DNA from: Gluconacetobacter sacchari
GTDB lineage: Bacteria > Pseudomonadota > Alphaproteobacteria > Acetobacterales > Acetobacteraceae
Assembly: GCF_014174255.1 (NCBI RefSeq)
Contig: NZ_JABEQJ010000030.1
Coordinates: forward strand, 1 to 56,075
DNA: 56,075 bases
Reading direction: 5' to 3'
Below the pieces are notes generated by a model. That model was not told the DNA's origin. It saw only the letters and a program-made list of their open reading frames with translations, and did no database searches. Shown one piece after another: positions 53,255-56,075 of this stretch; within the stretch, counting starts at the first letter, position 1, and every line of letters begins with the position of its first letter. The position numbers and the translations under genes were made by a program.

Positions 53255-54064
53255 GTGCTGATTCGTGCCGGTTATGACATTGCCCTGACGGTTCAGGCAC
53301 CTACGCCGATGGTTCTGATGCTGGAGGTCCATCCGGATCGTGAGCCGGACCTGATGACATCCCAGGTGCCGATCTTCGACCCGCCCGTCGCCACGCAGCG
53401 CTATCTCGATGGATACGGCAATCGTTGCACTCGGTTGGTGGCTCCACCGGGCACGTTGCGCACCAGCCTGTCTTTTCTCATCGCCGACAGCGGGCTGCCC
53501 GACCGGTGCATGCCCGGCGCGCGGGAAGTGCCGGTGGGGGACCTGCCGGCGGATTGCCTGCTGTTCCTGATGGGCAGCCGGTATTGCGAGACCGATCTTC
53601 TGTCCTCCGTCGCCTGGTCGCTGTTCGGCCATCTGGCGCCGGGGTGGGGGCGTGTGCAGGCGATCGTCTCGTTCGTCCACCAGCATATCCGCTTCGACTA
53701 CCAATTGGCGCGGCCGACCCGCACCGCCTACCAGGCCTATCAGGAGCGGGTGGGGGTGTGCCGGGACTATGCCCATCTGGCGGTGACGTTCTGCCGCTGC
53801 ATGAATATCCCTGCGCGGTATTGCACCGGCTATCTGGGGGATATCGGGATTCCGCCGGTCGATTATCCGATGGATTTCTCGGCCTGGTTCGAGGTCTGGC
53901 TGGAGGGGCAGTGGTTCACCTTCGACGCACGTCACGACACGCCGCGGATCGGACGGATCGTGATGGCGCGGGGACGCGATGCGGTGGATGTCGCGCTGAC
54001 GACGACCTTCGGCCCCGCTGTGCTGTCCAACTTTTTCGTGGCGACCGACGAGGAGATCGGCTGA
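53255..54064 (+). CDS. Transglutaminase-like cysteine peptidase family protein
   Basis: 269 aa from GTG 53255. The N-terminal bacterial transglutaminase domain is followed by the core: VGVCRDYAHLAVTFCRCMNI contains the catalytic Cys. The usual His-Ala-Trp site is read here as MDFSAWFEVW, so Ser stands where His is common, while the following FTFDARHDTPRIGRI retains the Asp and a His. I recall related alphaproteobacterial proteins with the same Ser, so this may be a subfamily trait rather than inactivation. Reaction unknown. Confidence 0.82.
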   Translation: MLIRAGYDIALTVQAPTPMVLMLEVHPDREPDLMTSQVPIFDPPVATQRYLDGYGNRCTRLVAPPGTLRTSLSFLIADSGLPDRCMPGAREVPVGDLPADCLLFLMGSRYCETDLLSSVAWSLFGHLAPGWGRVQAIVSFVHQHIRFDYQLARPTRTAYQAYQERVGVCRDYAHLAVTFCRCMNIPARYCTGYLGDIGIPPVDYPMDFSAWFEVWLEGQWFTFDARHDTPRIGRIVMARGRDAVDVALTTTFGPAVLSNFFVATDEEIG

Positions 54065-54106
54065 AAAGCCGTTCCTGGTTCGTCTCGCGCCCCATTTGGG
54101 AAATAT

Positions 54107-54389
54107 TGGTGAGCCGGGAGGGACTCGAACCCTCGACCATTCGATTACGTACCACTTCGGCTTTCGCCGCCCCGAGGGTTCGTGGTCTGGACTTTATCTT
54201 CACCATAGGCCGAAGCCGTTAGGTGGACCTTGTCAAGTCTCTACACCTTCCATCTTGCGATGGCTTGGCTCGGTATTGGCACGACCCAGAGGTCAGAGCG
54301 TTCACCGAGTTTAAGGTCTGTTCCACAGCCCGTTTCCCGACCGCGCTCCCATTGAAAGTCGAATGCTCTACCGACTGAGCTACCGGCTC
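54107..54389 (-). tRNA. tRNA-Lys(UUU), interrupted by a group I intron
   Basis: Exon 1 is 54389-54355 (35 nt) and exon 2 is 54147-54107 (41 nt). Joined, they give a 76-nt tRNA: acceptor GAGCCGG/CCGGCTC, D arm GCTC-AGTCGGTA-GAGC, anticodon stem TTCGA/TCGAA with loop CTTTTAA (anticodon TTT), T arm GAGGG-TTCGAGT-CCCTC and encoded CCA end. The intron lies between anticodon positions 2 and 3. Without removing it, the stem TTCGA has no partner. The gene has its own promoter at 54407. Confidence 0.93.
54148..54354 (-). ncRNA. Group I intron (Azoarcus/IC3-like), 207 nt
   Basis: The intron follows a U and ends in G, as group I splicing requires. The exon CUUU can pair with intron GGAG (bases 6-9), giving the splice-site U-G pair. 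Core elements are visible: CTCGGTGAA and ACCGAGCCAAGC (Q/P6 side), P7 formed by GACTT (54239-54235) and AAGTC (54194-54190), and the S-like AAGATAAAGTCC. GNRA loops occur in CGGGAAACGGG-, CCATC-GCAA-GATGG and CGGC-GAAA-GCCG stems, plus GGC-TTCG-GCC. Its size is close to the Azoarcus tRNA-Ile intron. It has no open frame for a homing endonuclease. Confidence 0.9.
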
Positions 54390-54406
54390 TCACCAATGCG
54401 GCCTCT

Positions 54407-54433
54407 CTTATAGGGCTTGATCTGAAAGGGCAA
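54407..54433 (-). promoter_or_regulatory. Promoter of the tRNA-Lys gene
   Basis: On the minus strand TTGCCC (54433-54428) and TATAAG (54412-54407) are spaced by 15 bp and lie about 20 bp before the tRNA 5' end. The spacing is slightly short but the placement is typical. Confidence 0.5.
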
Positions 54434-54489
54434 GCCCATAGATGGCGTGCCGTGGCCCCCCTATATATATATAAGGTACCGCTGCGCGC

Positions 54490-54750
54490 TTAGAGGTCCA
54501 ACGTCAGCCGCTTCCATTCATGGCAGAGCAAGACGGATAGGGGCCTGACGCGGTGCCTGCGACACCTCAAGGCATCTCGGACCTCAGCCATGGTCTTCGT
54601 GCCATCAAGCGAATCGAGCCTGACGATTCGCGTCTCATGGCATCTCTGACAGTGAGCCTTTAGCTGCCAGTCCTTATAGGTCGCGACTCGACTCGCCAGG
54701 ACAAACTGGCGTTCCTCTTCTTTCTTACGTTGTGACACCGCATGGCCCAC
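54490..54750 (-). CDS. Small Cys/His-containing protein of unknown function
   Basis: 86 aa from GTG 54750; a second GTG four codons later is possible. The chain is basic and soluble, with HCQRCHETRIVRL near residue 33 and LRCRRHRVRPL near 62. The cysteines and histidines are spaced like a small zinc ribbon. No family is recognised with certainty. It lies in less GC-rich DNA to the right of the tRNA-Lys gene and is followed by an AT repeat (TATATATATATA near 54463-54474). Confidence 0.5.
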   Translation of the reverse strand: MGHAVSQRKKEEERQFVLASRVATYKDWQLKAHCQRCHETRIVRLDSLDGTKTMAEVRDALRCRRHRVRPLSVLLCHEWKRLTLDL

Positions 54751-54791
54751 GATGAGAACATATCATGAACACACGAACTGCGCCAGAACGA

Positions 54792-55220: not shown

Positions 55221-55892
55221 TCAGTCGGCGGCCTTAGCAGGCGGAGATACCGCTCGCGCTATCTGGTAGCCCTTAGTTGTTAAACGATATGATTTCCGGA
55301 GCCAGCTATTCGTAGCATCCTCTATGTCTTCTCCGTATTCCACACATCCTCTGTCCATGAGAGATTCAGCGGATAGCTTAATGTCTGCTCGTTCGTAGTG
55401 ACGAGACGTATGATGTTCGACGGACTGCCCAATATCATCGAGATCTATTGGAACAGAAATCATGGCTTCATCAGATTGGTGTTCGTACAATGTGCTCATA
55501 ACTAGAGCATCTATAGAATTGAACTTGCGAATAAGATCAAACCATTCAGTTCTGATTCTTCTATCTTGCCCTGCCATGACTCTAGCGATCAAAGCTGCCC
55601 ATAGCTTTTGAAGCTCTTCGCGATCCTCTTCCATAGCAGGCTCAAGGACTTCCTTGGCGAGTGTCGCAGACAGATCATCAACGCGCTTCTGCCCCTTTAT
55701 CATCTCTTCTGCCAACTCGAACTCGTGTCGAAGATTCTTGAGGCGATTGCACCGGATCAAAGGATCCGTCCAGAAGCCTTTGACCGTCTCATAAAGGGCC
55801 TGCTGAAGTCCTGGCACTGCGTGAACAATCGCGCCAACGGCCTTGGCCGAATGTTCAATGGCTTCGGGGTCTAAAGTGGTGAGATCGCTCAT
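55221..55892 (-). CDS. Abi-alpha (DUF4393) family protein
   Basis: 223 aa from ATG 55892, which has a GGGGGAGG site at good distance; ATG 55907 in frame lacks one. The chain begins MSDLTTLDPEAIEHSAKAVG and contains the family region PLIRCNRLKNLRHEF, later AMEEDREELQKLWAALIARV with the 'EED.EL..LWA.L' signature. A winged-helix-like C-terminal part (SYRLTTKGYQIARAV) follows. Abi-alpha proteins are linked with phage abortive infection in other hosts. Codon use is clearly less GC-rich than in the rest of the window, pointing to acquired DNA. No second defence gene is visible before the window ends. Confidence 0.75.
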   Translation of the reverse strand: MSDLTTLDPEAIEHSAKAVGAIVHAVPGLQQALYETVKGFWTDPLIRCNRLKNLRHEFELAEEMIKGQKRVDDLSATLAKEVLEPAMEEDREELQKLWAALIARVMAGQDRRIRTEWFDLIRKFNSIDALVMSTLYEHQSDEAMISVPIDLDDIGQSVEHHTSRHYERADIKLSAESLMDRGCVEYGEDIEDATNSWLRKSYRLTTKGYQIARAVSPPAKAAD

Positions 55893-56075
55893 GGTATCCT
55901 CCCCCATGAGATTGGCTTGGATTCCACGGTTGGAAAAGCCCCGGCCTTCGCAGACCAGGGCTATCCCGGAAATCTCACACGGGAAGGTGCATCGGGCTCT
56001 GAAATCGGCGAAAGTTCTTGTTGGAAAAGCAAAATCCGCGAGCGAGGCCAGAGACCCGATGCAGACAGAGTGTAG
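55893..56075. other. Right edge, upstream of the Abi-alpha gene
   Basis: The promoter of the Abi-alpha gene should lie here. A plus-strand frame is open from about 55940 to the edge (KVHRALKSAKVLVGKAKSAS and on), but no start or family can be assigned. Confidence 0.25.

Follow-up and report, generated by a model that had tools for sequence, protein, structure and literature searches.

Why would a bacterium keep a 207-nt insert in the middle of the anticodon of a tRNA-Lys gene, and where did that insert come from? The question is raised by the window, as we call the whole stretch of 56,075 nt of Gluconacetobacter sacchari DNA (NZ_JABEQJ010000030.1) analyzed here.

An insert in the anticodon of tRNA-Lys(UUU)

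The gene lies near the right end of the window, and its parts are the following.

54355..54389, minus strand: 5′ exon of tRNA-Lys(UUU), tRNA positions 1-35 (35 nt, ending ...CUUU)
54148..54354, minus strand: 207-nt insert, a predicted group I intron, with U35 before it and U36 behind it; last base G
54341..54354, minus strand: start of the intron with the internal guide GGGAG (small fold, a prediction)
54179..54314, minus strand: conserved catalytic core, the basis of our covariance model R1
54107..54147, minus strand: 3′ exon of tRNA-Lys(UUU), positions 36-76 including CCA (41 nt)

ARAGORN folds the joined exons (54389-54107, minus strand, spliced) into a 76-nt tRNA-Lys(ttt). Without its intron option it finds no tRNA in the window, and with introns allowed it mislabels the gene as SeC. 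A splice-site script finds a U before the 5′ splice site, a G closing the intron, and exons that rebuild the gene. The script itself demands that U and that G, and the independent check is ARAGORN on the joined exons. A small fold predicts a P1 helix in which the guide GGGAG pairs with the CUUU of the 5′ exon, with a G.U pair at the splice site. A preliminary description of this DNA had proposed that a group I intron interrupts the tRNA-Lys(UUU) anticodon, and most of it holds up well: the coordinates and the 207-nt length are right, the exons make a tRNA-Lys only with the insert removed, the insert ends in G between U35 and U36, and its internal guide corresponds to the predicted P1.

The Rfam model RF00028 matches 54365-54171 (minus strand) over its full length (model positions 1-253) with 30.0 bits and an E-value of 7.8e-6 for the 501 bp searched. 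The Rfam gathering score is 50, and thus a default Rfam scan of this intron reports nothing; our RF00028 searches were run in E-value mode instead of with the default gathering cut-off. In the 4.83-Mb genome of the window (G000) the intron is one of two matches up to an E-value of 10 (E = 1.7e-5). The other, at 36.3 bits and also below the gathering score, is inside a tRNA-Arg(CCU) gene on contig C14. The covariance model R1, built from 11 tRNA-intron cores, gives the window intron 138 bits, a score in which the window sequence is itself one of the 11. These results support the insert being a group I intron, presumably a self-splicing one. For annotation, the consequence is that such tRNAs look missing when introns are not searched.

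A broken host gene and a prophage

We compared the locus with other genomes of the genus (G010, G001, G004, G006, G011 and G012 among them). The intron-bearing tRNA-Lys is found in only 2 of 14 genus genomes, G000 and G010, and in both the host's own gene is broken. In all 12 of the other genomes, searched with a 341-bp probe, the two halves of the tRNA-Lys are adjacent, in G004 because another element rebuilds them. The uninterrupted site in G001, G006, G011 and G012 reads ATTCG-ACTTTTAAT-CGAATGG. In G010, the host 5′ half (C3:114897-114935) enters foreign DNA after ATTCG-ACTTTTAAT, which makes attL, and the foreign DNA ends about 39 kb further on at TATTTA-ACTTTTAAT-CGAATGG, where the host 3′ half makes attR. 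From the comparison of the junctions with the uninterrupted site, the common core is therefore 9 bp around the anticodon (ACTTTTAAT). The host tRNA-Lys is not rebuilt at any of the junctions (attL and attR in G010, attL in G000). The G010 element begins with a tyrosine integrase gene (phrog_1, 6.4e-22; PF00589, 5.9e-8) and also encodes tail sheath, tail tube and head-tail genes, so that we read it as a prophage of about 39 kb. Inside its right end, about 120 bp from the attR core, there is an intron-bearing tRNA-Lys(UUU), 96% identical to the window copy over 325 bp.

In the genome of the window, contig C20 ends in the host flank and a tRNA-Lys 5′ half, ...ATTCGACTTTTAAT followed by AGCTCACAAG, the same attL as in G010. 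The window itself holds the other side.

54097..54771, minus strand: 95% identity to the right end of the G010 prophage over 676 bp (intron tRNA, upstream region, small ORF)
54490..54750, minus strand: 86-aa ORF without a Pfam or PHROG match, in DNA that is also present at the right end of the element in G010 and in G004
55221..55907, minus strand: 228-aa ORF, Abi_alpha (PF14337, abortive infection), in the prophage remnant
55961..56075, no strand assigned: 115-bp repeat (99%) of the C20 end, just inside the attL remnant; both contigs stop here
53255..54064, plus strand: host flank with a transglutaminase-like gene, found behind the uninterrupted tRNA-Lys in G001 and near it in G012

The apparent host flank directly adjoins the intron copy, 42 bp before the transglutaminase gene, and this means that a separate host 3′ half is gone, probably lost by recombination between the two 3′ halves. 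The contigs of G000, in which the element interior is unassembled, have no match to the G010 integrase. Without an integrase relative and without a host 3′ half, the G000 host now appears dependent on the intron-bearing copy. Judging by these junctions, the host's own tRNA-Lys(UUU) is the broken one on C20, and the window copy came with the element that broke it. The same insertion is present in a related genome (G010), and a second, uninterrupted tRNA-Lys(UUU) is not found in G000, where the 44 uninterrupted tRNAs of the assembly comprise one Lys(CUU) and no Lys(UUU). It follows that AAA decoding should depend on the intron copy and AAG decoding not necessarily, so that the earlier claim that all lysine decoding depends on splicing is kept for AAA and goes too far for AAG.

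The broken gene is rare. Among 100 genomes sampled from the family, the exact 5′-half pattern occurs in 28, of which 27 are intact and the broken one is G000; no intron core lies within 700 bp of any of the 28 matches. A prophage in IMG/VR (L501, integrase at 88%) has no intron tRNA in its 35-kb record, but as the trimmed record of the G010 prophage misses its own too, this absence is uninformative.

Could this be just a chromosomal tRNA intron like that of tRNA-Arg(CCU), unrelated to any element? Introns of that sort are certainly around: C14 has one, and C14-type RF00028 matches are present in each of the 14 genus genomes (12 are assigned to Arg(CCU) by ARAGORN, a typing that leaves out G002 and G010). 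But the Lys copy is in 2 of the 14 genomes, both with a broken host gene, and the 676 bp shared with the G010 prophage end, together with the attL/attR structure in G010, make this reading very improbable.

The Abi_alpha gene next door (55221..55907) brings up a different role for the intron, that of guarding the tRNA from anticodon nucleases (PrrC-like, acting on tRNA-Lys(UUU)) or of regulating tRNA supply. In a paper on tRNA-dependent lysogeny (Guerrero-Bustamante and Hatfull 2024, PMC10865867; statements on this and the other cited papers refer to excerpts of their text), phage tRNAs are treated as a counter to tRNA-degrading defenses, and PrrC is named. On the other hand, splicing leaves the tRNA with an ordinary anticodon loop, and one would reason that it is cut like the others; the link with broken tRNA genes is also left unexplained. 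We give this reading hardly any credence.

The explanation that we favor, and that we think rather probable, is that the window gene is the rescue tRNA of an integrated element, in which the intron would hide the essential copy from the integrase and splicing would restore the tRNA. We have a broken host gene with the same break point in two genomes, an intron copy borne by the element, no other tRNA-Lys(UUU) found, and, as described below, recurrence elsewhere. The tyrosine integrase of the element would recombine at ACTTTTAAT, a short core within the anticodon loop of the one tRNA-Lys(UUU) gene that the host had. Because the att site of the element carries the core only, the host tRNA-Lys is destroyed, and the element supplies its own tRNA-Lys(UUU) as a replacement. 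A hypothetical uninterrupted rescue gene in G010 would share with the host target the 17-bp anticodon stem-loop (TTCGACTTTTAATCGAA), and would thus itself be an integration site. The intron, whose insertion point falls inside the 9-bp att core, splits that core in the DNA, so that the replacement gene would no longer be an attB; self-splicing would then rebuild the anticodon in the RNA, leaving a gene hidden from the integrase yet functional. In G000, where a remnant of the element is left, the host would be relying on the intron-bearing copy.

Intron-bearing tRNAs in other genomes and in phages

There is a simpler reading in which the rescue is real and the intron is a passenger: what the element took over from a chromosome would be a tRNA-Lys with its group I intron already in place, and that intron would have no hiding role at all. 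We consider it possible, if somewhat doubtful. It explains the anatomy equally well, group I tRNA introns sit in the anticodon loop anyway, and close relatives of the intron do exist in chromosomes. Over about 300 bp, the intron-bearing tRNA-Lys(UUU) genes of Acetobacter peroxydans, Gluconobacter sphaericus, L281 and L301 have 89.5-91.2% identity to the G010 copy, and neither the integrase nor the sheath protein of G010 has a match in the 8-kb stretches around them. More generally, no element is seen in the chromosomal stretches with an intron-bearing Lys(UUU) (Acetobacter, actinobacteria, G034). Such genes without a visible element mean that the element may have captured a gene already holding its intron. 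G. sphaericus also has a tRNA-Lys half broken at the same base, with the intron copy on another contig.

In an intron tree, the window, G010, A. peroxydans, G. sphaericus, L281 and L301 form one group, with the phage contig L081 beside it. The intron of Gordonia phage Daredevil is placed, on a weakly supported branch, close to Lys(UUU) introns of actinobacterial chromosomes, another point for the passenger reading, and L250, an alphaproteobacterial MAG, falls elsewhere. (The tree leaves out rows with N, introns longer than 320 nt and scores below 14, and keeps 10 each of CAU and Leu(UAA).) The tree placement together with the two insertion points (34/35 and 35/36) suggests more than one intron entry.

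What the passenger reading fails to explain is an enrichment of intron copies beside broken genes. A genome-contig scan aimed at this 3′-exon type listed 120 matches, of which 88 loci have a splice reconstruction score of at least 13; the script gave nothing for 22 and a score below 13 for 10 more, and it also missed Daredevil. The 88 loci among the matches listed comprise 59 CAU, 17 Lys(UUU), 4 Lys(CUU) and 8 others. The preliminary description could not place Lys(UUU) as a host, and this does not hold: introns there are not rare, with at least 17 of the 88 reconstructed genomic loci, in genera that include Microbacterium, Acetobacter and Gluconobacter among the matches listed. We observe that 9 of the 88 listed loci (L197, L229, L250, L257, L258, L273, L282, L295, L300; 8 CAU and 1 CUU) have a broken 5′ half of the same type, ending in the anticodon stem-loop, within 600 bp upstream. 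The test considered same-orientation copies on both sides, and all positives are upstream. No broken half was found within 600 bp at the remaining 79, which include all 17 Lys(UUU) loci, a point against the explanation that we favor. In three further CAU loci (L203, L224 and L270, the first two from Pseudomonas) the cut is in the T arm. As a control, 1 of 132 intronless tRNAs with at least 300 bp upstream in the fetched genome loci has a broken half (Fisher p = 0.0013, ignoring relatedness, and with only 4 CAU among the 132). The exception, L427 1029-1105 (G066), is a tRNA-Met(CAU) that has no intron and lies about 155 bp downstream of a broken CAU 5′ half; it comes from the same MAG as L250 and is perhaps itself an intronless rescue.

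In nine of these genomes nothing but the broken half matches the CAU 5′ pattern exactly. The tRNA(CAU) of the intron loci is probably tRNA-Ile, and an integrase gene stands behind the intron-bearing copy in L257, G189 and L203. In L250, a tRNA-Lys(CUU) 5′ part of 47 nt is followed 120 bp on by the intron-bearing copy; neither an integrase nor a host 3′ half is seen in its 7.9-kb contig. Behind the broken tRNA and intron copy of L273 and L258 there are defense-like genes (HsdM methylases; ABC-3C CTD9).

A second count comes from 120 genomes of the order of Undibacterium pigrum, which we take to be Burkholderiales. The exact CAU pattern occurs in 49 of them, in 50 places. For 45 intact genes, none has an intron core within 700 bp, while each of the four broken halves, in 3 genomes (one of them the seed), has an intron core or an intron-bearing tRNA less than 700 bp behind it; the remaining place is itself an intron-bearing gene. 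Both counts, 9 of 88 listed loci vs. 1 of 132 and 3 of 3 broken-half genomes vs. 0 of 45 intact genes, argue against a passenger.

In G189:C4 (L563, reverse complement ~1253-2000) two tRNA(CAU) 5′ halves with different element ends stand in tandem, followed by the intron tRNA and an integrase. The order is suggestive of serial integration, with a second element entering the rescue gene of the first. We dropped this case as proof that an intron-free rescue can be hit: the join sits just where an intron would start, so that the hit gene may or may not have had one.

Phages provide a second kind of evidence. Daredevil has a tRNA-Lys(UUU) with a 238-nt group I intron at 34/35 (L059 2994-3305), separated by 567 bp from the integrase gene start; it is absent from the annotation of the record and was found by ARAGORN. 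Between the integrase and this tRNA there is a 16-bp core, CGGACTTTTAATCCGC. The spliced stem-loop is that of 3 of 11 Lys(UUU) genes of Tsukamurella order-mates and one base off in 4 of 11, the Gordonia host gene being outside our data. In section 10 of PMC10865867, as excerpted, Daredevil is listed as without a tRNA of its own and forming clear plaques. The gene is there, which revises the published case, and the clear plaques, as if it were not rescuing, speak against the intron tRNA working well. A further phage contig, L081, has an integrase, an 8-bp core and a tRNA-Lys(CUU) with an intron.

How do rescue tRNAs without introns compare? Bantam, SpeedDemon, Mollymur, DatBoi, OneUp and BrutonGaster have integrases 51-54% identical to that of Daredevil. 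The first five carry an intronless tRNA-Met/Ile(CAU) that keeps the 9-bp core, with stems unlike the att arms. BrutonGaster, with its Daredevil-like integrase, has an intronless tRNA-Lys in which a flipped 31-39 pair spoils the core (TCTTTTAAA). In the Lys tRNAs of three mycobacteriophages (Cain, and, as presumed rescue genes, Loadrie and Tourach) the stems are different but the core is kept in 3 of 3 cases. Thus 8 of the 9 intronless, in part presumed, rescue tRNAs examined keep the 9-bp core (5 of 6 in phages of Gordonia and 3 of 3 in those of Mycobacterium). We rejected the rule that rescue copies must lose the core; hiding it is not obligatory, and is one way among others. That intronless rescue tRNAs function in mycobacteriophages, as excerpted from PMC10865867, favors the passenger reading. 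Against it, the G010 rescue stem-loop is identical to its target (the only intron-bearing rescue with a known host target), and the Daredevil stem-loop has 16 bp in common with the att core of that phage. The intronless ones show differences in the stem or in the core; the cases are few and related, with Gordonia targets outside the data.

Integrase adjacency was also rejected as a general rule for phage-borne intron tRNAs, being found in 2 of 214 viral stretches, one of them Daredevil; the stretches are short, and the HMM, built from few seeds, gave the Pfam-recognized integrase of L203 only an E-value of 5e-4. When viral contigs were searched for a further copy of the anticodon stem-loop in its spliced form, Daredevil was the sole clear positive (the long matches in L095 and L075 are the gene itself), and G032, with an integrase beside an intron tRNA-Leu, has no second stem-loop copy in its stretch.

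The same searches returned other introns. Viral contigs (L064-L183, L304-L397) have group I introns in Leu, Lys, Asn, Arg, Thr, Glu and other tRNAs, mostly with no integrase in the stretch. The 595-kb phage LR756511 (L060, 1368-2154) has a tRNA-Leu(UAA) intron of about 700 nt with, by eye, an HNH-like reading frame. In the marine phages KT997847 and HTVC120P (L061, L062) an intron-core match has on either side a reading frame annotated as capsid protein, so that the capsid gene probably holds a group I intron. The conserved part of the intron matches 1265 plasmid records, among them pCTX-M3 (L004 2888-3186), with an intron-bearing tRNA-Leu(UAA) near aac(3)-IId. The best plasmid matches (L003, L004) turned out to be other tRNAs (Thr, Leu) and not tRNA-Lys.

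Returning to the rescue gene hidden by its intron, one can extend the idea, more tentatively and with somewhat less than even confidence, to introns in general acting as DNA camouflage of essential tRNAs against the integrases of their own or rival elements, with the intron gene outlasting the decayed element as the only copy. If true, camouflage would explain group I introns fixed in chromosomal tRNA-Lys and tRNA-Ile(CAU) without homing endonucleases, and would offer a route for tRNA introns to spread and become fixed.

Comparison with known systems

Canonical tRNA-targeting elements (compare PMC4383910) carry a long att copy that restores the tRNA at attL, and a rescue gene is not needed. 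Such an element is found in G004, in the same tRNA-Lys target and with an integrase 46% identical to that of G010; it rebuilds the tRNA at the left junction, and the 341-bp probe finds no intron-bearing Lys copy there. In G010 and G000, unlike in G004, the host tRNA is not restored, and the 5′ half enters element sequence after ACTTTTAAT.

Bacterial group I tRNA introns (compare PMC3984707, PMC4033280 and PMC5733544) are known from tRNA-Ile(CAU), Arg(CCU), Leu(UAA) and fMet. The window intron is like them in its length of about 200 nt, its place in the anticodon loop, the U before it, the G at its end and the same conserved core; it differs in its host, a tRNA-Lys(UUU) split at 35/36, and in being borne by an element. 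PMC5733544, as excerpted, also gives the name 'group I introns' to inserts of 22-49 nt in tRNAs of cyanobacteria, tRNA-Lys among them, which we judged too short for a group I core to be a precedent. The phage-borne tRNA introns reported here contrast with the statement in PMC3984707 (2014, as excerpted) that all phage group I introns observed until then were in protein genes. Group I tRNA introns and tRNA-dependent lysogeny are each known already; the link between them provides a testable function for an intron usually thought neutral.

Randau and Söll proposed that disrupted archaeal tRNA genes resist integration (cited in PMC4390854, as excerpted). Here too the disruption would make a tRNA gene unusable as attB; their proposal concerns an archaeal host defense, whereas ours concerns the element's own replacement gene, with a self-splicing intron. 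Sinorhizobium prophages (PMC11476347, PMC12429752, as excerpted) are likewise alphaproteobacterial and have a substitute tRNA; unlike in the present case, 'intron' occurs 0 times in both main texts. In the open-access literature (titles and abstract openings, among the matches listed) we found no group I intron in a phage rescue tRNA.

The closest system is tRNA-dependent lysogeny, known mainly from actinobacteriophages, in which, following the excerpts of PMC10865867, a core of about 10 bp lies in tRNA-Lys-TTT, the host gene is destroyed, and a phage tRNA complements it; experiments there show that mycobacteriophages need the phage tRNA. The excerpts also speculate that a second plasmid may integrate into a plasmid's own tRNA gene, that is, that a rescue gene can be a target. 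In a word search of that paper, 'intron' occurs in one reference title only. G010 shares with this system a tyrosine integrase, a short core in the anticodon, a host tRNA that is not rebuilt and the supply of a cognate tRNA. Unlike in the systems of those excerpts, the rescue tRNA of the window and G010 carries a group I intron inside the core, and the host is alphaproteobacterial; with the survey, integration with an intron-bearing rescue tRNA would extend to Alpha-, Beta- and Gammaproteobacteria. By its sequence, then, the arrangement is tRNA-dependent lysogeny in what appears to be a new form, one in which the intron of the rescue tRNA splits the att core.
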